From Bacillus sp. ISL-45 (GTDB taxonomy: Bacteria; Bacillota; Bacilli; Bacillales; Cytobacillaceae): a DNA stretch of 64,000 nt. Positions within the stretch are counted from its first letter, which is position 1. Each line of letters starts with the position of its first letter. A program made the translations under genes and the position numbers. The DNA lies in assembly GCF_018613195.1 (NCBI RefSeq), contig NZ_JAGGQQ010000009.1, positions 1 to 64,000 on the forward strand, in the 5' to 3' direction. Under the pieces are notes generated by a model. The model worked only from the letters and a program-made list of their open reading frames with translations. It searched no databases and was not told the DNA's origin. Below, piece after piece: positions 49,982 through 64,000 of the stretch.

Positions 49982-50002
49982 TAGTTCTTTGAGGTGATTC
50001 CT

Positions 50003-50299
50003 TTGACATTACTCTTCCATTATCTAATTATCCTTAATCTATTTGACGCTGCGGTAACTTGGATCGGCTTAAAGAATTCTTTTATCTCTGAACTGAATCC
50101 GTTTATGCAAGCTGTGTATGAAATCAATCCCTTTATATTCATCCTCATAAAAGTCACTCTGTCAATTTTCCTTTTATTATTTGTTCTTTTTAAAGTAGTC
50201 CCTCAGTCTTCATTTATCAAGGGCATCACAATTTTTGCATCAGCAGCTTATACTGCAGTTGTCTTCATGCATGTTTTCTGGCTTGTCCTCGTCTTTTGA
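50003..50299 (+). CDS. DUF5658-like small membrane protein
   Basis: 98-residue membrane protein with three helices. The first (FHYLIILNLFDAAVTWIGL) and the following ELNPFMQ match the DUF5658 pattern. TTG 50003 is 5 bases after GAGGTGA; GTG 49994 overlaps that site. Function unknown. It sits alone between the matrix locus and the SulP gene and shares a 15-bp leader sequence with the latter. Confidence 0.65.
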   Translation: MTLLFHYLIILNLFDAAVTWIGLKNSFISELNPFMQAVYEINPFIFILIKVTLSIFLLLFVLFKVVPQSSFIKGITIFASAAYTAVVFMHVFWLVLVF

Positions 50300-50345
50300 T
50301 AGCTCCAACTTGAAAAGTTCCACAAATTTTTATTTATTTCATATT

Positions 50346-50360
50346 CAATATCGCTCTAAC
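50346..50360. repeat. 15-bp leader repeat, copy 2
   Basis: CAATATCGCTCTAAC again, directly followed by AGGCG and TATAAT (50365-50370). Its position just upstream of a -10-like box suggests an activator or sigma-recognition role. Confidence 0.55.
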
Positions 50361-50408
50361 AGGCGTATAATTTTCTTATAAATGTATAAGAAAGAAGGCG
50401 TATCATTC

Positions 50409-51944
50409 ATGTTTCAAACTTTGAAGCGTGAGCTCTTGGCCGGGATTACGGTTTCGGTTGTTGCGCTGCCGCTTGCGTTGGCTTTTGGGATGCAGGCGAC
50501 GGGTAATTCGGATGGTGCCATCATTGGTTTGTATGGTGCTATCATTACTGGTTTTTTTGCTGCTTTGTTTGGCGGAACGAAGGGACAGGTGACTGGACCG
50601 ACTGGACCGATCACGATTATCTTTACTGGGATTGTGGCGACGCAGGGGCTGGAGTATGCGTGCATTGCCGCGTTTATGGGCGGTCTATTTCAAATTGTAT
50701 TTGGGTTACTTAAAGCGGGCAATTACTTGAAATTCATTCCCTTGCCGGTAGTCAGCGGTTTTATGAATGGGATCGCCATCATCATTATCATGGGGCAGCT
50801 GCAGTATGTGACGGGCAGCTTTTTAGTCGTGCTGTTGACGATTGTTTTTATGCTGTTTGCAATGAGGTGGATTAAGATTATCCCGCCAAGCTTGATGGCG
50901 CTGATTTTAGGAACAGTGGCGGTAATCCTTTTGGAAAAAGTACTGCCTGCGGTCCATTTCACATTGCCATTCATCAACGACTTTATTTTCTTCGACAGCA
51001 CAGAAAGGATTGGCGAGATTCCAAAAGGGCTCCCGCAATTCCATCTGCCAATTGCCGACTTGGGTGTCATCATCCAACTGATTCCAGCAGCGTTAAGCAT
51101 CGCGGTTCTTGGATCAATTGACTCATTGCTGACATCGGTTGTCATGGACAATATGACAGGTTCAAAGCACAAAAGCAATAAAGAATTAATTGGCCAGGGG
51201 ATAGGTAACACTCTTGCCGGTTTGTTCGGCGCGATGCCGGGTGCCGGAGCGACAGTCAGGTCTGTTGTCAATTTGCGAAGTGGTGGACAGACTGCTCTTT
51301 CAGCGATGGTCCATAGCGTCGCCTTACTGCTGTTCATGCTAGTATTCGGACCACTTGCAGAAGAAATTCCACTCGCAGTCCTAGCGGGGATTTTAATCAT
51401 GACCGGAATCACGATGTTCGATTATGACAGCTTGAAAATTCTCAAGGATGAGCCTCGTACAGACGCTGCAGTGATGCTGGTGACGATGATTTTAACAGTA
51501 GCTATTGACCTTATGGTTGCCGTCGGTGTCGGAATTGTGATGAGCGCGCTGATTTTCATGAAGCGGATGAGTGAGGAAGGCTTCAAGATTAATAGTAAAA
51601 ATGATAATGGTTTAAAGGTATATAGCTTGGAAGGCCCGCTTTACTTTGGGGCTACAGAGCTCATAACCAAAACAATCAGCTCGGATAGCAGTCCTGATAT
51701 TGTTATAGATATAGAAAAAGTAACGGTTGTTGATGCATCTGGTGCACTGCTTCTGCTGCAGCTCAAAGACCAGTTGAAAGAACGGGGGCAGAATCTTTAT
51801 CTAGTCGGTAACGACCTTGATCTTGGCAGCATACTGCGAAAGATGAATATATTCCATAAATTTGGTACAACCGGACACTTTGAAACCCTTGAAGAATTAA
51901 TCACTTATTTAAAGTTTAATAACAAACAAGTTCACGGTGCCTGA
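50409..51944 (+). CDS. SulP-family anion transporter with STAS domain
   Basis: Membrane transporter (511 aa) of the SulP/SLC26 family (sulfate, bicarbonate or other anions). The N-terminal segment LLAGITVSVVALPLALAFGMQATG and the GGTKGQVTGPTGPITIIF region are typical; the membrane part spans about 1-390 and the cytoplasmic STAS domain 410-511 (DIVIDIEKVTVVDASGALLLLQL). ATG 50409 is the start matching the family; ATG 50382 would add nine residues. The stop codon lies inside the terminator stem. Confidence 0.9.
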   Translation: MFQTLKRELLAGITVSVVALPLALAFGMQATGNSDGAIIGLYGAIITGFFAALFGGTKGQVTGPTGPITIIFTGIVATQGLEYACIAAFMGGLFQIVFGLLKAGNYLKFIPLPVVSGFMNGIAIIIIMGQLQYVTGSFLVVLLTIVFMLFAMRWIKIIPPSLMALILGTVAVILLEKVLPAVHFTLPFINDFIFFDSTERIGEIPKGLPQFHLPIADLGVIIQLIPAALSIAVLGSIDSLLTSVVMDNMTGSKHKSNKELIGQGIGNTLAGLFGAMPGAGATVRSVVNLRSGGQTALSAMVHSVALLLFMLVFGPLAEEIPLAVLAGILIMTGITMFDYDSLKILKDEPRTDAAVMLVTMILTVAIDLMVAVGVGIVMSALIFMKRMSEEGFKINSKNDNGLKVYSLEGPLYFGATELITKTISSDSSPDIVIDIEKVTVVDASGALLLLQLKDQLKERGQNLYLVGNDLDLGSILRKMNIFHKFGTTGHFETLEELITYLKFNNKQVHGA

Positions 51945-51967
51945 GTAAAATCAGGCACCATTTATTT
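51936..51967 (+). terminator. Terminator overlapping the SulP stop codon
   Basis: GGTGCCTGA (51936-51944, containing the stop TGA) pairs with TCAGGCACC (51951-51959), then ATTTATTTTT. Confidence 0.82.
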
Positions 51968-52042
51968 TTCATTATAATATTGCCAAATTTTTCTTTTGCA
52001 GGTACAATATGAAAGTATTTAAATCTAAAGGAGGCAGTCGAA

Positions 52043-52140
52043 ATGATTGATCGTAATCTATCAACTAAATCAATTTCATATTTTTTAACTTCGGCCTGCC
52101 TGTATTGTGTGTAGTAGCGCTTATTTTTGTCATGTTAAAA
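52043..52140 (+). pseudogene. Micro-ORF with apparent frameshift in T-run
   Basis: AAAGGAGG precedes ATG 52043. The frame reads MIDRNLSTKSISYFL and stops after 23 codons. Adding one T to the T6 run at 52081-52086 instead gives MIDRNLSTKSISYFF then NFGLPVLCVVALIFVMLK and a stop at 52138-52140, a typical single-helix small membrane protein. Either a real indel, a slippage site or a sequencing error. A terminator follows at once. Confidence 0.45.
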
Positions 52141-52149
52141 TAACTGCGT

Positions 52150-52180
52150 AACCACGGACTGGGATGTCTGTGGTTTTTTT
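52150..52180 (+). terminator. Rho-independent terminator
   Basis: ACCAC-G-GAC pairs with GTC-T-GTGGT, then T7. It closes the micro-ORF transcript. Confidence 0.82.
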
Positions 52181-52220
52181 GTGCCTAAAAATCGAATGTA
52201 TGTTCTTGGAGAGTGATATT

Positions 52221-53219
52221 GTGATTACAGTTGAGAATTTGAAAAAGGAATATAAATTGGTGAAGCGTGACCCAGGTCTTAAGGGTGCAATCAAGTCGCT
52301 TTTTAACCGGAAGTATGAGATGAAGCATGCGGTGAAGGGGATTAATTTTACCATTGAGCAGGGTGAGACGGTTGGCTATATTGGTGCGAATGGTGCGGGC
52401 AAGTCGACGACGATCAAGATGCTGACGGGAATTCTGACACCGACTTCGGGAAAGGTGACGGTGAATGGGCTGGTGCCGTATGAAAACCGGCAGAAGAACG
52501 CTGTCAATATCGGGGCGGTCTTCGGGCAGAGAACGCAGCTGTTCTGGGATATACCAGTTCGTGAATCTTATAATCTGTTAAAACATATTTACGAGATTCC
52601 GGAGCAGGAGTATCAGGAAACAGTCGCCATGTTTACGAAGGTCTTGAACCTGGAGCCCTTGCTGGGTATTCCGGTCAGACAGCTTTCGCTTGGGCAAAAA
52701 ATGCGCTGTGAACTGGCTGCGGCTTTTCTTCACAGGCCTAAAGTTGTTTACCTTGATGAGCCGACGATTGGTTTGGATATTGCAGTTAAAGTAAAAATCC
52801 GCAAATTTATTAAGGAAATGAATCAGCGCTGGGGCACAACAGTGCTGCTGACTACACATGACATGCAGGATATTGAGGAAATTTGTGACCGGATCATCAT
52901 CATTGATGGCGGTACAATTCTATACGACGGAGGGCTGGATCAGATTAAAAAGCAATTTGGCCAGCAGCGGGTAATCCATTTTGAGCTGCCGGATAAGGAA
53001 AAGTTCGTACTGCCTGCGTCCCTCATCGGCCAGGCAGAAGTATTAACGAACGAAGAAGAAACAAAGGTTAGCTTATCGTTTGACCATGAGACTGTTAAAA
53101 GCTCGTTTGTCATTTCGGAAATGATGAGCATGTATGAAATTGGCGATTTGAATATTGCGGACCCTAAGATCGAGACGATCGTAGAGGAGCTGTACAACAA
53201 GCAGGAACAGGGGGGATAG
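52221..53219 (+). CDS. ABC-2 type exporter ATPase
   Basis: ATP-binding subunit (332 aa) of an ABC-2 exporter of the NatA/DrrA/YhaQ kind. Walker A GANGAGKST, signature LSLGQKMR, Walker B VVYLDEPTIGLD and THDMQDIEEI are clear, and the C-terminal 90 residues are the accessory domain of this subgroup. GTG 52221 with GGAGAG upstream is the natural start; the longer frame to 52164 runs through the terminator. Two membrane partners follow, the first after 1 bp. Confidence 0.9.
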   Translation: MITVENLKKEYKLVKRDPGLKGAIKSLFNRKYEMKHAVKGINFTIEQGETVGYIGANGAGKSTTIKMLTGILTPTSGKVTVNGLVPYENRQKNAVNIGAVFGQRTQLFWDIPVRESYNLLKHIYEIPEQEYQETVAMFTKVLNLEPLLGIPVRQLSLGQKMRCELAAAFLHRPKVVYLDEPTIGLDIAVKVKIRKFIKEMNQRWGTTVLLTTHDMQDIEEICDRIIIIDGGTILYDGGLDQIKKQFGQQRVIHFELPDKEKFVLPASLIGQAEVLTNEEETKVSLSFDHETVKSSFVISEMMSMYEIGDLNIADPKIETIVEELYNKQEQGG

Positions 53220-53220
53220 C

Positions 53221-54009
53221 ATGAGAAAGTATTGGCAAATAGCTAAAGGGCGGATGCAGGAGAATACTGCCTATTCGGCCTGGTACTGGGCCGGGACCGT
53301 TTCTTCGGTGATGAAGCTGTTAATTATTTACTTCTTTTGGCAGGCGGTCTACGCAAACCAGACGACGATCGAAAACATTAATCTGGAAACGATGCTGACG
53401 TATATCGTGATTGCGATGCTGCTTCAGGGTTTTGTCGGCGGAGTCGGGAATGAGCTTGCCGAGAATATCAAGGAGGGGCAGGTTGCAATCGAGCTGATGC
53501 GTCCTTACGATATGATTTTTAAAATGTTTGCGGTTGATATTGGAGAGAAAATCATGTACTTGATTCAGGGAACGATTCCGATGATCTTGGTAGCTTACTT
53601 CTTTATGGACCTTAGCTTCCCAGAATCACCCGAGACCATTTTGCTATTCATAGTGAGTGCGATGGTGGGAATCTGGATCGGTACGTTCTTCGATTTCCTC
53701 GTTGGTGTCCTCGCGTTCTGGACAGTCAATGTCTGGGGAGTAAGGGTTCTGAAGGAATCGCTGATCACCTTTTTCTCAGGGGCGCTAGTGCCAATTACGC
53801 TTTTCCCGGATTGGCTCAGAACGATCACTGAATTCCTGCCGTTTCAGGCGATGGTGTATCTGCCGGTCTCGATTTATTCCGGATTGATTAGCGGAACAGA
53901 AGTTTACATGGCACTAGGAGTCCAGTTGTTCTGGCTTATTTCATTATATGTTTTGGTAAGGGTAATCTGGTCGCAGGCGATCAAACAGATTACGATTTTT
54001 GGAGGTTAG
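53221..54009 (+). CDS. ABC-2 exporter permease, subunit 1
   Basis: 262-residue membrane protein with six helices, of the ABC2_membrane_6 kind (MRKYWQIAKGRMQENTAYSAWYW opening, LMRPYDMIFKM coupling segment). It pairs with the next gene under the ATPase at 52221. Substrates of this three-gene type are poorly known (lipids, peptides and antibiotics are proposed). It starts 1 bp after the ATPase stop. Confidence 0.85.
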   Translation: MRKYWQIAKGRMQENTAYSAWYWAGTVSSVMKLLIIYFFWQAVYANQTTIENINLETMLTYIVIAMLLQGFVGGVGNELAENIKEGQVAIELMRPYDMIFKMFAVDIGEKIMYLIQGTIPMILVAYFFMDLSFPESPETILLFIVSAMVGIWIGTFFDFLVGVLAFWTVNVWGVRVLKESLITFFSGALVPITLFPDWLRTITEFLPFQAMVYLPVSIYSGLISGTEVYMALGVQLFWLISLYVLVRVIWSQAIKQITIFGG

Positions 54010-54020
54010 GAGGCGATTCA

Positions 54021-54812
54021 ATGCGTCGTTATACGAGATTATATTGGGAGTTTGCGAAGAGCCATATGAAGGTGATGATGGAGTACAGGATCGACTTTCT
54101 GATCGGTGTCGCCTCGGTTATGCTGGAGCAGTTCGCTTCGATCTTTTTTGTGAAAATAGTGTTCGACCATATCGAGCAGATCAATGGCTGGTCATTTTAC
54201 GAGATATTGTTCATTTACGGAATTGCGGCAACGGGCCGTTCGATCCACCAGATTTTCTTTGATAATTTATGGACGCTCGGCTGGCAGTATATCAGGCCGG
54301 GGAAGTTGGACCGTTTGCTGATCAGGCCGGTCAATCCGTTGTTCCATGTCGTTGCGGACCGTTTGCACCAGGACGGTTTTGGCCAGCTGATCATCGGATT
54401 GATCATCCTGGGAACGGCAATTCCGCAGCTTGATCTTGTCTGGGGAGCGGTAGAAATCGCCATGCTGGTCATTATGATCATCTCGTCCGGGCTGATTTTT
54501 GTGGCGATCAATCTATTTTTTGCGACATTCAGCTTCTGGATGATCGACAGCCTGCCGATTGTCTGGGCAGTCTTTAACCTGAGTGACTTTGCGAGATACC
54601 CGCTGACCATCTATCACAAAGGAATCCGCATGTTCCTGACATGGATCATTCCTTACGGTTTCACGGCATTCTATCCGGCGGCCTATTTTATCGACAAGTC
54701 CGGATACAAGGAATTTGCGCTCTGGACCCCGGTTGCAGCAATTGTTTGCTGTGTCCTTGCTTATGCATTTTGGAACAGAGGCCTCAAAGCCTTCGCAAGT
54801 ACGGGCAGTTAG
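54021..54812 (+). CDS. ABC-2 exporter permease, subunit 2
   Basis: 263-residue paralogue of the preceding permease (RRYTRLYWEFAKSHMKVMMEYRIDF; RPGKLDRLLIRPVNPLFHVV). Heterodimeric permeases with one ATPase form the complete exporter. GGAGG precedes ATG 54021. No clear terminator follows; a separate promoter precedes the SCP2 gene. Confidence 0.85.
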   Translation: MRRYTRLYWEFAKSHMKVMMEYRIDFLIGVASVMLEQFASIFFVKIVFDHIEQINGWSFYEILFIYGIAATGRSIHQIFFDNLWTLGWQYIRPGKLDRLLIRPVNPLFHVVADRLHQDGFGQLIIGLIILGTAIPQLDLVWGAVEIAMLVIMIISSGLIFVAINLFFATFSFWMIDSLPIVWAVFNLSDFARYPLTIYHKGIRMFLTWIIPYGFTAFYPAAYFIDKSGYKEFALWTPVAAIVCCVLAYAFWNRGLKAFASTGS

Positions 54813-54868
54813 GATAAAGTCAATCCGTTGAATATAGGGAAATTACAGATTATCCGTGCGGTTTCGGA

Positions 54869-54898
54869 TTGTCACTTGGGACTTCCGTCAGGTATGAT
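54869..54898 (+). promoter_or_regulatory. SigA-type promoter of SCP2 gene
   Basis: TTGTCA (54869-54874), 18-bp spacer, TATGAT (54893-54898), 31 bp before ATG 54930. Confidence 0.55.
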
Positions 54899-54929
54899 GG
54901 AAATAAATAGGTTGATAGGGGTGGCGAAG

Positions 54930-55286
54930 ATGTTGGAAAATAAGTCGGTCAGAGAAGTATGGCAGGAGATCGAAAGGGTAATGAGAGAAAGGCCTGAGCC
55001 GATTCAAGGCATGAATACGGTCTATCAATATGACATCACTGGTGATGACATCGGAACATTCCAATTGCTGATTACAAATGGAACTGCCCGTGTAGTTGAA
55101 GGAACTGAAGCAACACCAGATTGTACCCTGAAGCTGTCAGATAAAAACTTCAAAAAGATGATCATGGGCAAGCTCAACGGCACAGCCGCCTTCATGACAG
55201 GAAAGTTGAAAATCCAGGGCAGCATGGGGCTCGCACTCAAACTAGAAGGAATACTTAACGAATACAACCTAAGCGAAACCGCATAA
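54930..55286 (+). CDS. SCP2 sterol-binding-domain protein
   Basis: 118-residue single-domain SCP2 protein, a fold that binds lipids or acyl-CoA in a hydrophobic tunnel. Typical parts are YQYDITGDDIGTFQLLITNGTARVVEGT, DCTLKLSDKNFKKMIMGKLNGTAAFMTGKLKIQGSMGLALKL. ATG 54930 with AGGGGTGG upstream is chosen; the frame from 54828 covers the promoter. The role may be fatty-acid handling. Confidence 0.86.
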   Translation: MLENKSVREVWQEIERVMRERPEPIQGMNTVYQYDITGDDIGTFQLLITNGTARVVEGTEATPDCTLKLSDKNFKKMIMGKLNGTAAFMTGKLKIQGSMGLALKLEGILNEYNLSETA

Positions 55287-55292
55287 CCACTT

Positions 55293-55323
55293 TGGACCAG
55301 GCATTCAAGCCTGGTCCATTTTC
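55293..55323 (+). terminator. Rho-independent terminator
   Basis: TGGACCAGGC and GCCTGGTCCA form a perfect 10-bp stem, 6-base loop, then TTTTCC. Confidence 0.85.
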
Positions 55324-55458
55324 CTGTCATAAAAGATTTCTTTCCATCTATAAAAAATATTTATTAAAAATACATTGCACAATGAGACAAATTATAACAA
55401 GATGTGACACATCCTGATATAATAAGGCTATCAAGTTTTCAGATATAAGGAGATTCGT

Positions 55459-56688
55459 ATGGATCCAATCGAAAAAAATTCGGTTTTAGTATATGAAGAA
55501 GTAAAAGCAGTAAAGTTCTTTCTTTGGATATTTTATCTCATTCTTCTGCCGTATGATCTTTCATATTACTATTTAATTCCATCTTTCAATGAAACTGATA
55601 TTGGACTTCCTGCTCATGGTATGGGCTTTTTCTTTCATATTTTTCTCTTTGCATTATTACCTATAGCAATGTATATGGTTACAAAGGGTAACCCAGAAAA
55701 AGTGAAGTATATTTATTTCTTTGCTTTTATTTTAATAGATTTTGTTAATAACTTCTTAATCTATTGGGGAACCGCACATGAATTCAAAAGTGGCCATGTA
55801 CTAGAAATCTACTTTATTCTTTTCTCCCCAATTTTTGTAAGTGCACGATTCTTTTGGACCATGACCCTTGGCTTTTTTGTTAAATATATGGTAATGGGAG
55901 TAATCTTCCAATCTCCTAAAGTATTGGTTCCGATGGCATTAATTATTTTTATTGCAGCTATCGCCTGGATATTGTTGACCCGTTTTCAGTCATATATCAA
56001 AGCTATTAAATCTATATATGAGGATATGAGACAAAAAGAGAAGTTGGCAGCTATTGGCCAAATGGCAACAGCAATTGCACATGAGATTAAGAATCCTTTA
56101 TCCTCCCTAAAAGGGTTCACGCAGCTTCAGCAGGAGAAAGACAAAGAGGATGGTCATTATTACCCAATAATGCTAAGTGAAATTGATAGAATTAATTCAA
56201 TCGTAACGAACCTCATGATCTTAGGAAAACCTAATACAGCCGTAAAAAATACTAGGAATTTGAGAGAAATCATTGAGTATGTTCTCGTGGTTATTGTTCC
56301 TTATGCCGATAGAATGAAAATTGACATTGAACTGGATTTAATTGATTCGCCAGGTTTACTATGTGATGGGAATCAATTGAAACAGGTATTCATCAATTTA
56401 ATCAAGAATGCCATGGAATCAATGCCAGAAGGAGGCACAGTAAGAATAACCTCAAAAAATGAGGATGGTTTTGCTATTGTTTCGGTTCAGGATGAAGGAT
56501 GTGGTATTGAACCAGCTAAATTACAAAAACTCGGTGAGCCATTCTATACAACCAAAGAAAATGGTAATGGATTAGGTTTGATGGTTACTAAAAAAATTAT
56601 TGAAGAACATAGCGGAATATTTAATATTGAAAGCGAGCTAAACAAAGGTACGACAATAACAGTAAAATTACCTGTTTATGATTTTTAA
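55459..56688 (+). CDS. Membrane sensor histidine kinase sharing sensor with HD-GYP neighbour
   Basis: 409-residue kinase. Residues 1-185 are a membrane sensor with about six helices, and residues 195-409 the catalytic part: H-box ATAIAHEIKNPLSSLKGF (phospho-acceptor His), N-box QVFINLIKNAMESMPEGG, G-boxes VQDEGCGIEP and ENGNGLGLMVTKK. It is a sporulation-kinase-like catalytic core without a neighbouring response regulator. The sensor half is clearly homologous to that of the HD-GYP protein at 56907 (SGHVLEIYFILFSPIFVSARFF versus SGNAVEILLVLFSPFFVNTRFF). AAGGAG precedes ATG 55459. AT-rich compared with flanks. Confidence 0.87.
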   Translation: MDPIEKNSVLVYEEVKAVKFFLWIFYLILLPYDLSYYYLIPSFNETDIGLPAHGMGFFFHIFLFALLPIAMYMVTKGNPEKVKYIYFFAFILIDFVNNFLIYWGTAHEFKSGHVLEIYFILFSPIFVSARFFWTMTLGFFVKYMVMGVIFQSPKVLVPMALIIFIAAIAWILLTRFQSYIKAIKSIYEDMRQKEKLAAIGQMATAIAHEIKNPLSSLKGFTQLQQEKDKEDGHYYPIMLSEIDRINSIVTNLMILGKPNTAVKNTRNLREIIEYVLVVIVPYADRMKIDIELDLIDSPGLLCDGNQLKQVFINLIKNAMESMPEGGTVRITSKNEDGFAIVSVQDEGCGIEPAKLQKLGEPFYTTKENGNGLGLMVTKKIIEEHSGIFNIESELNKGTTITVKLPVYDF

Positions 56689-56718
56689 TAACTTTTAAAA
56701 AATAATATATTTAAATAA

Positions 56719-56762
56719 ATAAACCAAAAGGACTATTTTTCAGATAGTCCTTTTGGTTTATA
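56719..56762 (+). terminator. Terminator of histidine kinase gene
   Basis: AAACCAAAAGGACTAT pairs with ATAGTCCTTTTGGTTT (16 bp, loop about 8). It separates the kinase from the HD-GYP unit. Confidence 0.82.
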
Positions 56763-56906
56763 ATGGAGAAAAATGTCGATTTTTAGCGGAAGCGAATAGG
56801 TAATAAGACCTGTGTTTTGTTGATAGGGAATTATCCTATTAAATTTCATTTATTTTAGGCGATATGAATATAAAGGGAAGAATCAGAGATTCGCGAGGTA
56901 TAAAAT

Positions 56907-58097
56907 ATGTATAGACAAAAAGAAGATCCAACTCTTATCAATGAGGAACAACGAGCGGTTAAATGGTTTTTAGCACTTTTTTATTTCATATATACTTTTT
57001 ATGAAGTTTTTTATCATATGATCTATAAGAATATAGACTTAACTCTTCCTAGGGAAATTAATATTTGGATGTATATTAGCTTGCTATTATTATTGCCACT
57101 ATCTTACTACCTAATGAAGAGAGAGAAATTATATCTAGTCAAATACTTCTTTGTTGTGGGATATCTTCTAATCTCGGTTGTAAACGAATCGTTGATATTT
57201 TCAGGTGATAACCTCGAATATCAGAGTGGAAACGCTGTTGAGATATTATTAGTGCTATTTTCACCGTTTTTTGTTAATACTCGATTTTTTGTGGTTGTCA
57301 CGACAGGGCTTGTTACTAAATATGTTTTTTTCGGCGTATTACTTCAGTCAGTACAAGCGATTTTACCTGTCACTTTGGTAATTGTTTTAAGCGGTATTGC
57401 TTACATTCTACTTAGGAGATTCCAAAGTTACATAGATGCTATTAAAAAATCTTATAATTATCAGCTAGAAGGAATTGTAAAAGGGGTAATTGCCACAATT
57501 GAGTTAAAAGATCCTTATACCAGAGGCCATAGTGAAAGGGTTGCACATTACGCAAATTCATTAGCTCGAGAAACTGGAAAGTTTACTAATGAAGAATTAA
57601 ATTCAATTAATTATGCATGCCTGTTGCACGATATAGGAAAGGTAAATATTCCAGACTCTATACTTATGAAGCCCGGAAAATTGACTAAGGAAGAGTTTGA
57701 GGTTATTAAAACACATCCAAAAGTTGGTGCAGAGGCGATTAAAGATGTAAGTGGCCTTGGAAACAATATAGAGATAGTGAAATTTCATCATGAGAGATGG
57801 GATGGTAAAGGATATCCTAATCAGTTGAAGGGGAGTGAAATTCCTTATCTAGCAAGAATTGTCTCAATTGCAGATGCTTTTGATGCAATGACATCTTCTC
57901 GATCTTATCGGTCAGCCCTACCTGTAGAAGAAGCTTATAGACGTATAGTCGAGGGTAAAGGAACTCAATTTGACCCTGAGATGGTAGATTTATTTAAAAA
58001 AGTTTTTTCTGAGTGGATTATTTTTCACGAAAAATATGAATGGGAAAGTAACTTTCCTCTTAATAAAGCCTTTTTAAGAGAGGAGGTGACATTATGA
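56907..58097 (+). CDS. HD-GYP phosphodiesterase with six-helix membrane sensor
   Basis: 396-residue protein. Residues 1-190 are the same membrane sensor as in the kinase at 55459 (AVKWFLALFYFIYTFYEVFYH; RRFQSYIDAIKKSY against TRFQSYIKAIKSIY). Residues 195-380 are an HD-GYP domain with RGHSERVAHYA, LLHDIGKVNIPDSIL, HPKVGAE and HHERWDGKGYP, all metal ligands present, so c-di-GMP hydrolysis is expected. Its stop overlaps the ATG of a 20-residue peptide gene (ATGA), so the two are translated together. AT-rich, like the kinase. Confidence 0.87.
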   Translation: MYRQKEDPTLINEEQRAVKWFLALFYFIYTFYEVFYHMIYKNIDLTLPREINIWMYISLLLLLPLSYYLMKREKLYLVKYFFVVGYLLISVVNESLIFSGDNLEYQSGNAVEILLVLFSPFFVNTRFFVVVTTGLVTKYVFFGVLLQSVQAILPVTLVIVLSGIAYILLRRFQSYIDAIKKSYNYQLEGIVKGVIATIELKDPYTRGHSERVAHYANSLARETGKFTNEELNSINYACLLHDIGKVNIPDSILMKPGKLTKEEFEVIKTHPKVGAEAIKDVSGLGNNIEIVKFHHERWDGKGYPNQLKGSEIPYLARIVSIADAFDAMTSSRSYRSALPVEEAYRRIVEGKGTQFDPEMVDLFKKVFSEWIIFHEKYEWESNFPLNKAFLREEVTL

Positions 58098-58156
58098 AAA
58101 TCCGTAAGTTAAAAAAAATAAGGACTACCTGCTGGTGGTGCTTGATTAGACCTTAA
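58094..58156 (+). CDS. 20-residue CWWC peptide, candidate signalling/RiPP precursor
   Basis: ATG 58094 follows AGGAGGTGA (58081-58089), a perfect ribosome site, and overlaps the HD-GYP stop. The peptide begins MKIRKLKKIR and ends TTCWWCLIRP: a highly basic leader-like half and a compact Cys-Trp-Trp-Cys core. It is followed by a hairpin and then by an M50 protease with a PqqD-like domain. This is the layout of a precursor peptide with its processing enzyme. No family recognised; function is inferred from context only. Confidence 0.65.
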   Translation: MKIRKLKKIRTTCWWCLIRP

Positions 58157-58170
58157 GTAATAAACGGGAG

Positions 58171-58194
58171 GGGATGTAGGTGTAACTACATCCC
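58171..58194 (+). promoter_or_regulatory. Hairpin between peptide and M50 gene
   Basis: GGGATGTAG (58171-58179) and CTACATCCC (58186-58194), perfect 9-bp stem, 6-base loop, followed by TTATAATAG. The weak U-run suggests attenuation rather than full termination, which would give more peptide than protease mRNA. Confidence 0.6.
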
Positions 58195-58222
58195 TTATAA
58201 TAGCTAATTGAGGCGTGGTTTA

Positions 58223-59401
58223 ATGAATATATCATATGAGACTCAAGTGTCGTTGAATCCCTTGAAAATTCGTGAAGAATTAAAACACTATATTGTTGAG
58301 GATGAAACCACGGGAAACTTCTACGAAATGCCGAGAGTTTGCATTGTTGCCATCGAGTTAATCAACCAGGGAAAACCGATGGAGGAAATTGAGAAATCCT
58401 TGATTACTGGGTTTCCGGACGAAGATATTAATTTTTTGGAGTTTGTAAACCAACTGATCGAACTTGAACTCGTAAACGAAATTAATGGTGAACCTATAAT
58501 TAGATGCGTAGCCTCAAAAACGCATTCTGGCTTCACCTGGATCCCACAAACCCTTGGCCAGTTCTTCTTCAATTCAATCTGTTCAAAGTTGTACATCCTT
58601 TTATTTATGGCAAGTACAGTTTTGATCCTGTTCCAACCGGACTTATTCCCACGCTACTCGGATCTATTTGCGTTTGATTTGATGTTTCAAAATGTCCTAG
58701 CCTTGCTTGTGATTAGCTTCTTCCTTGTAATCCTCCACGAATTCGGTCATGTCCTTGCGGTCCGTTCGGAAGGTTTGCCGGCAAAGATAGAAGTGGGTAA
58801 CCGTTTGTTTTTTGTTGTGCTGGAAACAGATATGTCCCAGGTGTGGAAATTGCCGGCTGAAAAGCGCAATAAGCTTTATCTTGCCGGGATGAATTTTGAT
58901 CTTGCAGTATTGTTCCTGGCATTGGCAGCCCAGCTTTTTGCGAGTGATAATACCATAACTATGGGATTGCTGAAGCTGGTTGTACTGGACACGTTTATCC
59001 GTCTTATTTACCAAACTGCCGTATTTATGAAGACAGATCTTTACTATGTCATTGAAAACTTAACAGGCTGTTATAATTTAATGGAAAATGGGCGCAACTT
59101 CTTGGCGAAATGGCTGCCTTTTCTGAGAGTGCCAGAAACAGAGACCTTCGCCGGAGAAGAGAAGTTCGTTCGCAGATACGCCTATTTCTACCTTGCAGGC
59201 ATTCTGCTCACACTCATCATCACCGCCTACTATTACATCCCGCAAATGATCTTCGCGGTGAACGAAATCATGCTTCCGGGATTCTTGGAACCAATCACCA
59301 GCATTCGTTTTTGGGATTCGGTTGTCTTTTTGCTGCAAATAGTGTTAGTTTTGGGTTTATTGCTATATTCATGGACAAAGAAATATCGTTATAGCAGTTA
59401 A
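58223..59401 (+). CDS. Membrane M50 zinc protease with PqqD-like N-terminal domain
   Basis: 392-residue protein. Residues 1-90 look like a PqqD/RRE-type peptide-recognition domain (HYIVEDETTGNFYEMPRVCIVAIELINQGKPMEEIEKSLI). From about 118 it is a polytopic membrane protein with the zinc-protease motif HEFGH at 172-176 and a possible third ligand in the GMNFDLAVL region. This resembles YydH and other 'putative peptide zinc metalloproteases' that process ribosomal peptides. The 20-residue peptide just upstream is the natural candidate substrate. ATG 58223 follows GAGGCG by 8 bases. Confidence 0.8.
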   Translation: MNISYETQVSLNPLKIREELKHYIVEDETTGNFYEMPRVCIVAIELINQGKPMEEIEKSLITGFPDEDINFLEFVNQLIELELVNEINGEPIIRCVASKTHSGFTWIPQTLGQFFFNSICSKLYILLFMASTVLILFQPDLFPRYSDLFAFDLMFQNVLALLVISFFLVILHEFGHVLAVRSEGLPAKIEVGNRLFFVVLETDMSQVWKLPAEKRNKLYLAGMNFDLAVLFLALAAQLFASDNTITMGLLKLVVLDTFIRLIYQTAVFMKTDLYYVIENLTGCYNLMENGRNFLAKWLPFLRVPETETFAGEEKFVRRYAYFYLAGILLTLIITAYYYIPQMIFAVNEIMLPGFLEPITSIRFWDSVVFLLQIVLVLGLLLYSWTKKYRYSS

Positions 59402-59430
59402 AAAGACAGCCGGGTGGCTGTCTTTTAATT
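59401..59430. terminator. Bidirectional terminator
   Basis: AAAAGACAGCC and GGCTGTCTTTT form a perfect 11-bp stem with A and T runs on either side, between convergent genes ending 59401 (+) and 59436 (-). Confidence 0.88.
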
Positions 59431-59435
59431 TTGGT

Positions 59436-60488
59436 TCAGTATGATTTAACGTAATCTATCAAAATTTCTTTATACTTTTCCAGCGATTCTAGCTCAATGT
59501 ATTCGTCGTCTCCATGCCAGTTTGCTCCGCTTGGACCGAACTCGATTGCCGGGATTCCGTGTGCTGCGAAATACTGGGTGTCTGCTGCTCCGTGCTGGCC
59601 GAATATCACTGCTTCACCAGCAATATGTTTTTCCAAAACGGGTTTCAGCTGGGTGATGAATGGATCATCCTGTTTTGTCGCCACAGGGATTCCCTTCAAA
59701 CCGATGGTAACTTTAGCTTCTGATATCCCTTCGATTTGCTGCACGATCGAAGCGGGATCTTGTCCAGGAAGATAACGGATATCAAGGGACATGACACAAT
59801 GATCAGGTACCTTATTAAAAACTTCGCCACCGGATATGATGGCAAGATTAACAGATGGTGATGGATAAAACTCCGAGCTTTCTTTTATAAAAGGCAATTC
59901 AAGCAGTTTTTCGTAAACTCGATACGCCTTGACAATCGCATTATCGCCTTCCCACGGCCGGCTGCCATGAGCGGATTTTCCGGTGACTTCGACTTCTAGC
60001 CTCAATACACCTTTTGCCTGCAGGGCTATCCCCAGCTGAGTTGGTTCAGAGGAGATGACAAAATCCCCGCGATAATCATTTTCTACAAGGTAGCCAGTAC
60101 AATTCATCCCGCCGATCTCTTCGTCGGAAACAATCTGCAGCTGGATTTTTACCCCGATTTTTTGATTGCGCAACTCTTTCATCGCGACCATCATCGCAGC
60201 AACTCCAGCTTTCATATCAGCTGCGCCTCTGGCGTAGATTCGGCCATTCTTTTCAACGGGTACGAATTGCTCTTTTTTCCCGCTGACCACATCAACATGT
60301 CCGTTGAACACAATCGTTTTATCTCCTTCGCCTATCTCGCAGACTACCATTTTATATCCATTGTTTTCAATCAAACTCGGCTGCAATTCATGCTCAATCA
60401 ACCATTGTTTGCAAAACTCGACCGCCTGATTGGCACCTTCCTTCGTGGAGCTGTCAATCAGGATCAATTCTTTCAATAATTCCTTCAT
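59436..60488 (-). CDS. M20-family metallopeptidase (ArgE/DapE/ACY1)
   Basis: Cytoplasmic zinc deacylase or peptidase (350 aa). Ligand motifs are VFNGHVDVVSG (His, Asp), RGAADMKAGVA, SDEEIGG (catalytic Glu) and the late His in FGPSGANWHGDDE. The middle holds the dimerisation domain (KGVLRLEVEVTGKSAHGSRPWEGDNAI). Relatives include acetylornithine deacetylase and succinyl-diaminopimelate desuccinylase; the exact substrate is unclear. ATG 60488 follows AAGGAGTG; the longer frame to 60530 lacks a RBS. Confidence 0.87.
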   Translation of the reverse strand: MKELLKELILIDSSTKEGANQAVEFCKQWLIEHELQPSLIENNGYKMVVCEIGEGDKTIVFNGHVDVVSGKKEQFVPVEKNGRIYARGAADMKAGVAAMMVAMKELRNQKIGVKIQLQIVSDEEIGGMNCTGYLVENDYRGDFVISSEPTQLGIALQAKGVLRLEVEVTGKSAHGSRPWEGDNAIVKAYRVYEKLLELPFIKESSEFYPSPSVNLAIISGGEVFNKVPDHCVMSLDIRYLPGQDPASIVQQIEGISEAKVTIGLKGIPVATKQDDPFITQLKPVLEKHIAGEAVIFGQHGAADTQYFAAHGIPAIEFGPSGANWHGDDEYIELESLEKYKEILIDYVKSY

Positions 60489-60655
60489 AGCACAAACACT
60501 CCTTGAAAAGGTTCTACTTAACATTACCACACTAGTATATTTTCAATCTCAATAATATATGGCAGTGCCTTATCAGGATATATTTATTTTAAATCATTCG
60601 AATGGGAATATAGTTATAAGGGTGTGTATTTAAAATAGGGTGAAATAGGCCTAAA

Positions 60656-60669
60656 TGCAAGCGTTTTTA
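60656..60669. promoter_or_regulatory. Possible cre site
   Basis: TGCAAGCGTTTTTA fits TGNAARCGNWWWCA at 13 of 14 positions, about 60-70 bp upstream of a TATAAT at 60729-60734 that probably serves the nucleotidase gene. Confidence 0.4.
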
Positions 60670-60777
60670 TGACAAAATGTTTAGAAAAATCAGGTCTATC
60701 AGTCCATTTCCGATTTCGTGAATCCTACTATAATTAAACACGTATCTACCAATCTAATCACTGAGGAGATGGATTTC

Positions 60778-63700
60778 TTGAAGAAGCCTTTGCGCAAGAT
60801 AGGAAAGACTGTTGTCGCCACAACAATGGCATTGTCTGTGTTAGCAGGTCCTGTTTCTTATAAATCATTTGCAGCTGGCAAGCCTGATCAGGCAGGGAAG
60901 CATGAAGTGCAGCTGCGTATTATGGGAACAACAGATATTCATACAAATTTATATAACTACGATTACTATAAAGGAGTGGCGGTTCCGGACTTCGGCCTGG
61001 CTAAAACAGCTACTTTAATTAAAGAAGCAAGAGAAGAAGAAGCTGGGAAAAACAGCTTGTTATTCGATAATGGTGACCTGATCCAGGGAAATCCGCTCGG
61101 CGACTATAAAGCCAAGGTTGATGTACTTGAAGATGGGGAGATGCACCCTGTCTTTGAAGCTATGGAACTATTGGATTATGATGGTGCGACAGTTGGAAAC
61201 CACGAGTTTAACTATGGATTGGAATACCTTGATGAAGTGCTGGATGACGCACCAATGCCGTATGTAAATGCGAACGTTTACAAGTATGATGGCGATGACA
61301 ATCCTGACAATGACGAGAACTATTTTAAGCCTTACACGGTCTTTAATAAAAAGGTAACGGATGCAAATGGCAAAACCCAGGTGATTAAAATTGGGGTTGT
61401 CGGTGCGGTGACACCGCAAATCGTTCAGTGGGACAAAGCGAATCTTGACGGGAAAGTGATTACGAAAGATATTGTAAAATCGGTAGAATCCCAAATTCCT
61501 AAAATGAAAGAAGAGGGCGCTGATATTATCATTGCACTTGCCCACTCTGGAATCGGCGACGAAAAAGTAGTTGAGATGGAAGAAAACGCTGCCTACGATC
61601 TGACAAAAGTCGAAGGAATCGATGCCATCATCTCCGGCCATAATCACCTGAACTTCCCAGGCAACTTCATCGGATTGCCAGGCGTTGATGCTGAAAACGG
61701 CACAATCAATGGAGTTCCGGTTGTCATGCCAGGAAGCTGGGGAAATCAGCTTGGTGTCATGGACCTTACCATTGTAAAAGAAAAAGGTAAATGGAATGTG
61801 AAGAGTTCCAAAGCTCAATTAAGAGCTGTCTATGATAAAACGACTAAGACAGAGTTGGCGAAACCCGATTCAGAAATTTTAGAAGCGGTAAAAGAAGATC
61901 ATGAAGGTACGGTGGAGTATGTAAACCAGCCGGTAGGCAAAACGACTGCCGATATCAACAGTTACTTTGCTTTAGTCCAGGATGACCCATCTATCCAAAT
62001 CGTTACGAATGCACAAAAATGGTATGCTGAGCAAAAAGTAAAAGGCACTGCAGATGAGAATCTACCAATTCTTTCAGCAGGAGCTCCTTTTAAAGCAGGC
62101 GGACGCAATGGTTCAGAGTACTATACGTATATCCCTGAGGGAACAATTGCAATCAAGAACGTAGCAGACCTTTATCTGTATCCAAACACAGTGGCTACAA
62201 TCAAGGTGACAGGTGCGGATGTTAAGGAATGGCTTGAAATGTCTGCAGGACAGTTCAACCAAATCAACGAAAATAAAACGGATGAACAAGAGTTAATCAA
62301 CACTAGCTTCCCAACTTATAACTATGATGTCATCGATGGCGTAACTTACGAAATTGATGTTACCGAACCAGCAAAATATGATAAGGATGGCAAAGAGGTT
62401 AATCCTGATGCAAACCGTATTAAAAACCTGCAATATAACGGACAGCCAATCGATCTTGAACAGGAATTCCTTGTTGTAACGAATAACTATCGTGCAAACG
62501 GCACCTTCCCGGGTGTCAGAAATAAAACGGCAGTGGAAATGTATCCGGATGAAAATCGCCAGGTAATCATCGATTATATCAGTGAACTGGGAACAATTGA
62601 TCCATCTGCAGATAATAACTGGAGCTTTGCAGGAGTAGAAAAAGAGCTTAATGTAACATTCACCTCTTCACCTGCTGCACAAGAAGCGCTTCCGGAGTCA
62701 GGTCTGATTAACTATGCTGGAGATGCTGCAGATAGTTTTGCTAAATACCAGCTGCACCTGCCAATCGAGCTTCAGCTTCTGGGGATCAATGATTTCCATG
62801 GCCAGCTGGACACTTATAACTCAAAAATCAATGCAGGCGGTGTTGAATACCTCGCTGCATATTTGAAAGAACGTGAAGCGGAAAATCCTAATACATTGAT
62901 GCTTCATGCAGGCGATGCTGTTGGAGCAAGCTCCCCGGTATCCGCTTTGCTTCAGGACGAGCCTACTATCAAAATCTTGAACGAGCTTGGTTTTGACGCA
63001 GGTACTGTCGGCAACCACGAGTTTGATGAAGGTGTAGATGAAATGCTGCGCTTGATCTATGGTGGAAGCCACCCAAAAACAGTGGAGAAGTATGGCGTTT
63101 TTGAAGGTGCCAAATTCCCATATGTTGCAGCTAACGTTGTTGACAAAGCTACAGGTGAGAATATTTTAGATCCGTATACAGTAATTGATGTAAATGGAAT
63201 TCCAGTTGGAGTCATCGGTGTAGCGTTATCTGATACCCCAAACATTGTGATTCCAAGTGCAGTACAGGATGTGCAATTCACCGACGAAACCGAAGCAATC
63301 AACCTCTATACTGAGGAGTTAAAGGCGCAGGGTGTTGAAACAATTGTTGTTTTAGCGCATAACCCATCTTTTTCAAAAATGGATGGATCTGATGCTGGTG
63401 AAGAACTTGTTGAGATTGCTCAAAATGTAGATGATGAAGTAGACGTGTTATTGGGCGGGCATAACCATGCTTTTACTAACACTAAAGTTGACGGCAAACT
63501 TGTCGTTCAGTCTTATTCTTCAGGTACTGCTTTTTCAGATGTAGACTTATTGATTAACCCTGTAACGAAAGATGTTATGGTAGGCAGAGCAGAAATCGTC
63601 ACAACATACCGGGATCAAATTGAGCCGGATGCTGAAATCAAAGCCATGCTGGACACTTATGTAGCAGATGTTGCACCAATTCTGAATGAAGTGATCGGGA

Positions 63701-64000
63701 CAGCATCAAACCGTATCAGCCGTGATACAAGTGCTTCTGGTGAATCTGCAATGGGTAACCTCGTGGCAGATGCAATGCGTTGGGAGACAGGAACTGATTT
63801 TGCCTTCATGAACTCAGGCGGGGTCCGTGCTGACATTGATGCAGGTGAAATCACGTGGAAAGAAGCTTTCACCGTTCAGCCATTCGGTAATGATCTTGTA
63901 AAAATGAATGTGACTGGTGAAGTCATCAAGACATTGCTAGAGCAGCAATGGGGCAGTAAAGTCCGTATCATGCCAATTTCAGGCTTGAAGGTAACTTACG
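60778..64000 (+). CDS. yfkN: YfkN-like bifunctional cyclic-nucleotide phosphodiesterase/5'-nucleotidase (3' end cut)
   Basis: Large exported nucleotidase, open at the window edge after 1074 codons. The signal peptide is residues 1-31 (ends KSFAA). First module: metallophosphatase (MGTTDIHTNLY, DNGDLIQG, VGNHEFNYG, ISGHNHL), then a 5'-nucleotidase C-terminal domain. A second metallophosphatase begins near residue 662 (LLGINDFHGQLD, HAGDAVGAS, VGNHEFDEG, LLGGHNHA), followed by the start of a second C-terminal domain (NSGGVRADIDAG). This tandem design matches B. subtilis YfkN. TTG 60778 follows GAGGAG; ATG 60769 abuts that site. B. subtilis YfkN ends with a sortase-type signal, here beyond the edge. 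Confidence 0.88.
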   Translation, partial: MKKPLRKIGKTVVATTMALSVLAGPVSYKSFAAGKPDQAGKHEVQLRIMGTTDIHTNLYNYDYYKGVAVPDFGLAKTATLIKEAREEEAGKNSLLFDNGDLIQGNPLGDYKAKVDVLEDGEMHPVFEAMELLDYDGATVGNHEFNYGLEYLDEVLDDAPMPYVNANVYKYDGDDNPDNDENYFKPYTVFNKKVTDANGKTQVIKIGVVGAVTPQIVQWDKANLDGKVITKDIVKSVESQIPKMKEEGADIIIALAHSGIGDEKVVEMEENAAYDLTKVEGIDAIISGHNHLNFPGNFIGLPGVDAENGTINGVPVVMPGSWGNQLGVMDLTIVKEKGKWNVKSSKAQLRAVYDKTTKTELAKPDSEILEAVKEDHEGTVEYVNQPVGKTTADINSYFALVQDDPSIQIVTNAQKWYAEQKVKGTADENLPILSAGAPFKAGGRNGSEYYTYIPEGTIAIKNVADLYLYPNTVATIKVTGADVKEWLEMSAGQFNQINENKTDEQELINTSFPTYNYDVIDGVTYEIDVTEPAKYDKDGKEVNPDANRIKNLQYNGQPIDLEQEFLVVTNNYRANGTFPGVRNKTAVEMYPDENRQVIIDYISELGTIDPSADNNWSFAGVEKELNVTFTSSPAAQEALPESGLINYAGDAADSFAKYQLHLPIELQLLGINDFHGQLDTYNSKINAGGVEYLAAYLKEREAENPNTLMLHAGDAVGASSPVSALLQDEPTIKILNELGFDAGTVGNHEFDEGVDEMLRLIYGGSHPKTVEKYGVFEGAKFPYVAANVVDKATGENILDPYTVIDVNGIPVGVIGVALSDTPNIVIPSAVQDVQFTDETEAINLYTEELKAQGVETIVVLAHNPSFSKMDGSDAGEELVEIAQNVDDEVDVLLGGHNHAFTNTKVDGKLVVQSYSSGTAFSDVDLLINPVTKDVMVGRAEIVTTYRDQIEPDAEIKAMLDTYVADVAPILNEVIGTASNRISRDTSASGESAMGNLVADAMRWETGTDFAFMNSGGVRADIDAGEITWKEAFTVQPFGNDLVKMNVTGEVIKTLLEQQWGSKVRIMPISGLKVTY

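Follow-up and report, generated by a model that had tools for sequence, protein, structure and literature searches.

A conserved CWxC micropeptide gene between MASE12-HD-GYP and M50 protease genes in Bacillus sp. ISL-45 and its relatives: a possible peptide-to-c-di-GMP cassette

The locus and its relatives

The window analysed here is a stretch of 64,000 nucleotides (nt) from the 4.6-Mb genome of Bacillus sp. ISL-45 (assembly GCF_018613195.1, contig NZ_JAGGQQ010000009.1, positions 1 to 64,000). Near its end lie genes for a sensor histidine kinase, an HD-GYP protein, a peptide of 20 codons and an M50 membrane metalloprotease. The last three form a conserved unit, which may be a signalling cassette in which a processed peptide acts on the breakdown of cyclic di-GMP (c-di-GMP). 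The features are as follows.

55459..56688, + strand: MASE12 sensor histidine kinase, 409 amino acids (Pfam MASE12, HisKA, HATPase_c); facultative neighbour, outside the minimal cassette
56719..56761, no strand assigned: inverted repeat with an 18-bp stem between the kinase and HD-GYP genes; possible terminator, scored on the minus strand
56907..58097, + strand: MASE12-HD-GYP protein, 396 amino acids (Pfam HD_5, HD, MASE12); predicted c-di-GMP phosphodiesterase, proposed receptor
58081..58086, + strand: Shine-Dalgarno AGGAGG of the micro-ORF, from the sequence
58094..58156, + strand: micropeptide gene MKIRKLKKIRTTCWWCLIRP, 20 codons; leader KIRKL..[IV]K/R, core CWWC plus tail
58171..58194, + strand: hairpin between the micropeptide and M50 genes, stem 58171-58179/58186-58194; possible partial terminator, found by eye with relatives' gaps aligned
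58223..59401, + strand: PqqD/RRE-like plus M50 intramembrane metalloprotease, 392 amino acids (RRE, RiPP recognition element; RiPP, ribosomally synthesized and post-translationally modified peptide); proposed processing protease (Pfam M50 in relatives)
58736..58750, + strand: HExxH zinc site of the M50 protein (HEFGH, residues 172-176), from the sequence

The ATG of the micropeptide open reading frame (micro-ORF) overlaps the HD-GYP stop codon as ATGA, and the 66-nt gap between the micropeptide and M50 genes contains the hairpin. The original prediction had described a 20-codon frame with a ribosome-binding site at the HD-GYP stop and a hairpin 3' of it; both are present, and the folding is conserved in the gaps of relatives.

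Relatives were drawn from several sets. A scan of named genomes with an alignment of the M50 protein confirmed 151 relatives, and the named loci referred to below are the best 80 of these 151. The family, order and phylum samples held 193, 299 and 299 genomes, and 14 genomes served as controls. The nearest M50 relatives among the named genomes were mostly from Mesobacillus or Bacillus sp., with one record labelled Chryseobacterium.

The micropeptide gene

Judged by its substitution pattern, the micro-ORF is a real, translated gene. The ratio of nonsynonymous to synonymous change (pN/pS) was 0.074 over 13 alignable codons of 80 micropeptide sequences, and the two alternative frames carried stops in 80/80 and 73/80 sequences. 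It had been said beforehand that synonymous sites behaving as in untranslated DNA, or loss of the micro-ORF from relatives that keep the HD-GYP and M50 genes, would speak against the gene. The pattern found is that of translation, and the micro-ORF was kept in all 80 named loci, always in the order HD-GYP homologue, CWxC micropeptide, M50 (in L136 the HD-GYP gene is in pieces).

Within these loci the start codon was ATG in 73 cases, TTG in 6 and GTG in 1. In 64 cases GGAGG preceded the start at a distance of no more than 20 nt. Of the 79 loci in which the HD-GYP stop could be placed, 46 had the start overlapping it. The micropeptide lay at most 450 nt from the M50 gene in 78 loci, and insertions separated the two genes in the others. 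At one locus, from Neobacillus mesonae (L164, between 4000 and 6000), an ORF for a group II intron-type reverse transcriptase stands between micropeptide and M50 with both frames intact.

The 80 loci encode 77 distinct micropeptides of 18-26 residues, and each of these loci has a co-encoded precursor with a conserved leader and a variable core. Hardly any variation was seen in the leader, [M]K[IV]R.L..xK, which is separated from the CWxC motif by 2-5 residues. The two Cys residues and the first Trp of this motif were invariant, the full CWWC was found in 75 loci, and the tail was variable. The window micropeptide matched no Pfam or NCBIfam model, and five relatives matched no NCBIfam model.

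Searches that started from the HD-GYP protein gave the same result. The micro-ORF was present at the 30 best HD-GYP loci (30/30). An HD-GYP match at E≤1e-60 was found in 109/193 family genomes, one per genome; G025 is without MASE12, which leaves 108 genomes with a MASE12-HD-GYP protein. All 108 have the micropeptide and 105 have M50, which is short in G102 and split in G020. In the latter (L244, 2769-3945) the M50 gene is in two overlapping frames while the HD-GYP and micropeptide frames are open, which may be a sequencing error or a recent loss. As to the three exceptions, the G153 sequence ends at a contig edge, and G088 and G108 are without M50 genome-wide.

TTCWWC was found directly 3' of the HD-GYP gene in 79 of the 108 genomes, a count for which coordinates were matched by eye and part of the loci opened. 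The other 29 loci were read, and all have a CWxC micropeptide, e.g. with KATAFPCWWC or KLTGCWICWFV. As a DNA pattern, TTCWWC occurred in 83/193 family genomes compared to 2/193 for a reversed control pattern. A chance CWWC ORF was rejected on the basis of this control and of the 30/30 HD-GYP and 80/80 M50 loci. Isolated TTCWWC matches with no adjoining HD-GYP or M50 gene (L058, L060, L084, L085, L091, L092, L125-L129) look like chance. A mobile origin was also considered, and none of 26 pattern matches in viral contigs was confirmed.

In the order sample, M50 matches formed two groups, one at E≤1e-122 (32 genomes) and one at E of about 1e-79 to 1e-51. The micropeptide was present in 32/32 genomes of the first group, nine of which are shared with the family sample; two have MKVKKL or MKIKKL in place of MKIRKL. 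The linkage of the micro-ORF to a PqqD-like M50 gene, as originally proposed, was therefore seen in every named locus and every first-group order genome. Neither the CWWC peptide nor the cassette was named in any title or abstract opening met in our literature searches, which mostly covered papers outside subscription.

The intergenic hairpin

Gaps of suitable length 3' of the micropeptide in 76 relatives folded more stably than shuffled sequences (mean z -3.19; z<-2 in 65/76). A stem like GGATGC..GCATCC was seen in most of 28 aligned micropeptide-M50 gaps, and by a stricter rule 40/76 gaps had a terminator-like shape. This hairpin may cause the peptide message to be made in greater amounts than that of the protease. 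Between the kinase and HD-GYP genes, terminator-like hairpins on the + strand were found in only 13/51 gaps. In the window a strong inverted repeat (56719-56761) separates these two genes, and they may therefore be separate transcripts. A search of Rfam over positions 50000-64000 gave one match, below its gathering score.

Tandem Trp codons followed by a conserved hairpin could also mean that the micro-ORF is a leader peptide whose Trp or Cys codons control read-through into M50. The pN/pS value argues against such an attenuator, since the amino acids of the leader are kept and the changes fall at synonymous sites. Moreover, the peptide survives where M50 is gone, and the second Trp is lost in five peptides of a 101-row tree. 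We find attenuation scarcely credible.

The M50 protease and the peptide leader

Pfam M50 was matched by 48/48 aligned members of the protease family at E≤1 (best 2.3e-5). H172, E173, G175, H176, K270, T271 and D272 are invariant, and the HExxH zinc site of the M50 family is present. The original prediction of an M50 protease with a PqqD-like domain held for the protease, in which the HEFGH site is present. Support for the PqqD-like domain came only from the profiles of relatives: PqqD (PF05402) was matched by 6/48 members (best E 8e-4) and the PqqD-like WgkC model of NCBIfam by 12 at a lenient E-value, and the window protein gave no Pfam PqqD match at E≤1. At the same lenient E-value, 33 members matched daptide_HExxH and 9 matched YydH/LiaK. 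The window protein matched the NCBIfam daptide intramembrane metalloprotease at E 1e-4 with 21.5 bits, against a cut-off of 300. A sequence search against solved structures gave nothing useful.

Distant M50 relatives (about 30% identity) are carried by large Streptomyces plasmids, mostly as hypothetical proteins, e.g. NZ_CP107961.1 264294-265172. The plasmid search returned 24 records, 20 of them from Streptomyces, with 28.8-31.5% identity among the 10 matches listed.

The M50-less genomes separate the leader from the core. The micropeptides of G088 and G108 (MKLIRFLMLIVSCWWCLWWQP at L103 and MNILKLKKLITACWWCAWLGV at L107) keep CWWC without the KIRKL leader, and the L103 peptide is more hydrophobic at its N-terminus. 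The two genomes fall in different clades of the HD-GYP tree, each with SH-aLRT 100, so the M50 losses look separate. The leader is kept only where M50 is present, in a comparison with two cases of loss.

The MASE12 proteins

MASE12 (PF20971) was found in residues 13-173 of the kinase (P0001, E 6.5e-29) and in residues 13-169 of the HD-GYP protein (P0002, E 8e-28), and the two regions are 41% identical. A common sensor in both proteins had been predicted, which this supports; the six helices ascribed to it were not recovered, as a hydropathy scan gave five and four segments in the two regions. The predicted difference in output was confirmed by Pfam, with HisKA and HATPase in the kinase and HD_5/HD in its neighbour.

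The MASE12-HD-GYP protein is a predicted c-di-GMP phosphodiesterase. It has the HD and HHExxDGxGYP motifs of HD-GYP phosphodiesterases, and H241 D242, H294 H295 E296 and G302 Y303 P304 were invariant in 42 aligned rows, five rows being left out of this alignment. Since the window genome has 15 GGDEF domains, c-di-GMP is probably in use.

The kinase is not a constant member of the cassette. No same-strand kinase match was found in the fetched flanks of 20/80 named loci, and 14/32 order genomes with a first-group M50 have a single MASE12 protein. MASE12 also occurs without the cassette: 34/142 family genomes with MASE12 are without a MASE12-HD-GYP protein, and 10 of these loci, together with 6 in the order sample, were opened and held kinases with no adjoining micropeptide or whole M50. 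Two kinase-only loci (L231 and L236) hold chance CWxC strings. At another locus (L237 3066-4300, G086) the MASE12 kinase is fused into the last 54 residues of M50, a deletion scar from which the HD-GYP gene, the micropeptide and most of M50 have been removed. In the phylum sample MASE12 was found in 1/299 genomes, the window's own, and in 0/14 controls. Co-occurrence of the micropeptide with the shared sensor, as originally proposed, is thus complete for the MASE12-HD-GYP protein (108/108) and fails for the MASE12 kinase, which occurs without the micropeptide and is often missing beside it. The kinase stands outside the core unit, and in the explanation preferred below it would be a separately inherited relative and not a required reader of the peptide.

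Exchange of peptide core and HD-GYP type

The type of the peptide core is tied to the type of the HD-GYP protein. Neobacillus-type loci number 37. HD-GYP type A goes with T at peptide residue 11 in 26 of them, and type B with A, V or L at that residue in the other 11, a concordance of 37/37. HD-GYP identity is 47.3-58.1% across types and 61.0-91.9% within them. In contrast, mean identities across and within types were 62.4 and 64.1 for the kinase and 59.6 and 60.3 for M50, a gap of less than 2 points. On trees of the same 99 rows, peptide classes required 4 changes on the HD-GYP tree compared to 11 on the M50 tree. Because each genome has one HD-GYP match, the types look like alleles and not paralogs.

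Trees for each gene were then scored for type B at the 32 loci with a full kinase, with 500 shuffles (shuffled means about 8). On the trees of the two HD-GYP domains, a single branch separates type B from the rest (support 100 and 99). Type B required 7 changes on the M50 tree (117/500 shuffles as low), 6 on the whole-kinase tree (35/500) and 8 on the tree of the kinase's MASE12 domain, HK_MASE12 (310/500), which is unsorted. The kinase-domain tree, with 4 changes and 0/500 as low, is partly sorted. On careful trees the M50 protein gave 7 changes (shuffled mean 9.6, 20/500 as low) and the kinase 5 (shuffled mean 7.9, 9/500), and a single type-B clade was rejected by the approximately unbiased (AU) test for both (p 0.009 and p 5e-6, respectively). 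The last 60 HD-GYP residues separate cleanly by type. Further downstream, neither the intergenic hairpin (7 changes, shuffled 9.0, 29/500) nor the first 95 M50 residues (9 changes, shuffled 9.6, 216/500) are cleanly split by type. These patterns suggest that the HD-GYP gene and the peptide core are exchanged together, as a single allele, while the kinase and M50 genes on either side differ in descent.

Distance comparisons, which do not fully remove shared ancestry, agreed with this in part. Over 77 loci, two parts of the HD-GYP protein correlated with the peptide tail: its MASE12 domain (HD_MASE12; partial r 0.249) and its catalytic part (partial r 0.256). In each case 0/500 permutations were as high. 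The tail showed no correlation with M50. Over 51 loci the tail was uncorrelated with HK_MASE12 (r 0.041, 145/500 as high).

A second candidate type trait and a candidate specificity position were rejected. K/R in the tail was found in 20/26 type A and 0/11 type B loci, and independent pairs were non-significant. HD-GYP residue 115 is W alongside 12/14 insertion peptides and 5/5 non-CWWC peptides, and it follows clades. Type-fixed columns were denser in MASE12 (6/32) than in HD (5/114; Fisher p 0.014), where columns are not independent.

In the original prediction, the kinase and the HD-GYP protein have a sensor in common, through which a processed peptide is read. MASE12 is indeed present in both, their genes are often adjacent, their MASE12 domains correlate weakly (partial r 0.131, 0/500) and the kinase-domain tree is partly sorted. 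However, kinase-only genomes exist, cassettes occur in genomes with a single MASE12 protein, and neither the tail distances nor the tree of HK_MASE12 link that domain to the peptide. Dual reading is therefore distinctly unlikely.

Neighbouring genes and related systems

The MASE12 proteins and M50 are the only ORFs of at least 70 amino acids that were seen in over 35 of the 80 named loci. In this comparison, which covered enzymes encoded at the loci themselves, genes for transport or export, immunity or modification were not constant neighbours. Genes resembling the ABC transporter genes at 52164-54812 of the window recur in 8-13 of the 80 loci (L135-L214), about 4-6 kb upstream of M50. A protein like an amino-acid permease occurs at a similar distance in 22 of them, and both kinds of neighbour are lineage-bound.

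The second group of M50 matches comprises 19 loci, 15 from M50 places in the order sample and four from the family search. ThiF-domain proteins were found in the 4/4 loci scanned, and other loci have ORFs in a similar place. ORFs of 20-26 codons, e.g. MKIEVKKTEKLKPTVIPYGG, were seen in 14/19 loci, a descriptive count because the pattern used had been tuned to leaders of this kind. They occur in as many as five tandem copies, whose cores differ. Examples of such wider PqqD-M50 loci are L239 3500-6145, L318 1977-5134, L327 2526-5500 and L334 3946-5400; four peptides of this wider set matched no NCBIfam family. The end of their leader, EK[LV]K[PA]T, resembles KKVKAT of the CWWC peptides. These loci are thus like the cassette in having a related M50, a very short precursor and a leader of the form MKI..K.EK[LV]K[PA]T. 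They differ from it in that ThiF replaces the MASE12-HD-GYP protein and several have tandem precursors. On a midpoint-rooted tree, the CWWC-type M50s (30 rows chosen) formed one branch side, 100/100, apart from the 19. We know of no name for PqqD-M50 loci with ThiF-like proteins.

The tandem ORFs bear on another explanation, namely that the micropeptide is an intracellular, membrane-bound regulatory subunit of the HD-GYP protein that M50 destroys, with no export of peptide. This could account for the overlap of its start with the HD-GYP stop, the co-inheritance of core and HD-GYP type, the retention of the core in M50-less lineages with a more hydrophobic N-terminus at L103, and the lack of an exporter as constant neighbour. 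However, tandem ORFs with variable cores beside related M50s look like production rather than turnover, and the family profiles that M50 matches best are those of proteases that mature ribosomal peptides. We regard the subunit model as fairly unlikely.

Known peptide systems share parts of this arrangement. The M50 protease Eep matures streptococcal and enterococcal pheromones such as ComS and SHP, which come from short ORFs, sometimes with Trp-Trp, and are read after import by cytoplasmic receptors of the Rgg/ComR type. To our knowledge, Eep has no PqqD-like domain. In ComQXPA and Agr, peptide and receptor types are co-inherited as exchangeable alleles and the receptor is a histidine kinase, whereas the proposed receptor here is an HD-GYP protein.

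The closest profile matches are to proteases of modified peptides. The RRE-fused site-2 peptidases of daptides (DapP; NF041824 daptide_HExxH) account for the 33/48 matches noted above. Daptides are defined by a precursor with a C-terminal Thr and by a linked decarboxylase, aminotransferase and methyltransferase (PMC10036551). None of these enzymes is a constant neighbour in the 80 loci, only 2/80 micropeptides end in Thr, the precursor is 18-26 residues long with an HD-GYP partner, and the window M50 falls far below the model's cut-off. The other likeness is to the YydFGHIJ epipeptide system of Bacillus (YydH/LiaK metalloprotease, NF058609; 9/48 members), in which a membrane protease is believed to cleave a ribosomal peptide and set it free (PMC7026026). 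Mature YydF is 17 residues long (PMC7026026), compared to about 20 for the whole precursor here. Neither a radical SAM epimerase nor a YydIJ-like transporter was a constant neighbour in the 80 loci; they were not sought genome-wide.

Epipeptide and daptide products are described in these sources as membrane-active (PMC7026026; PMC10036551). The resemblance of the M50 to their proteases could mean that the locus makes an antimicrobial, RiPP-like peptide, with the MASE12 proteins doing no more than sensing damage to the membrane or controlling how much is made. The lack of a constant modifying, immunity or transport gene argues against this, as do the single HD-GYP match per family genome and the tracking of the HD-GYP allele by the core type. 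An antimicrobial role is, in our judgement, quite improbable.

Interpretation

The explanation we prefer is a three-gene peptide-signalling cassette, in which M50 processes the leader and the HD-GYP protein reads the core and passes the signal on to c-di-GMP; on sequence evidence, we consider it evenly balanced between right and wrong. The micropeptide would be a precursor in which the leader KIRKLKKVK is joined to a short core made up of CWxC and a variable tail. The PqqD/RRE-like N-terminus of M50 would recognise the leader, and the protease would cut near the leader-core junction, at or in the membrane, to free the core. The MASE12 membrane domain of the HD-GYP protein would then read the core and change c-di-GMP breakdown. 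The overlapping start would couple translation of the peptide and the HD-GYP protein, and because of the hairpin M50 is probably expressed at a lower level than the peptide. The originally proposed processed-peptide signal linked to c-di-GMP keeps its support in the conserved micro-ORF, the linked PqqD-like M50 and the core tied to the HD-GYP protein, and loses the kinase as co-reader.

Several observations weigh against the proposed cassette. The tail covaries with the HD-GYP catalytic part as much as with MASE12, which ties the core to the HD-GYP protein and not to MASE12 as such. Because the peptide and HD-GYP genes overlap, their co-inheritance could be due to linkage alone. Beyond the Neobacillus-type loci the residue-11 marker becomes looser: across all leader-bearing rows A, V or L occurs in 22/77 non-B and 21/22 B peptides. 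Independent exchanges with strong support number only two on the M50 tree or three on the kinase tree, the sign test is non-significant, and there is the partial sorting of the kinase domain. The relatives' profiles point only weakly to an N-terminal PqqD/RRE domain, and two lineages keep the micropeptide without M50. Finally, over the 77 loci, leader distance did not follow the M50 N-domain (partial r -0.004, 250/500 permutations as high), although this comparison has low power because the leader hardly varies, and leader distance slightly followed the HD catalytic part (partial r 0.190, 2/500).

The broader possibility is a self-contained peptide-to-c-di-GMP system, with an ultra-short precursor matured by an RRE-M50 protease, sensing by the membrane domain of an HD-GYP protein, pherotype-like allele exchange and kinship to the wider ThiF-linked family. 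We would put this at slightly less than an even chance. If true, bacilli would be able to pass a peptide signal straight on to c-di-GMP, with no two-component relay in between, and a class of ligand would be suggested for the MASE12 sensor domain. PqqD-M50 proteases would also serve peptides too short for any model in the Pfam and NCBIfam libraries searched. With two peptide types and lineages that are naturally without M50, the idea lends itself to testing by swaps.

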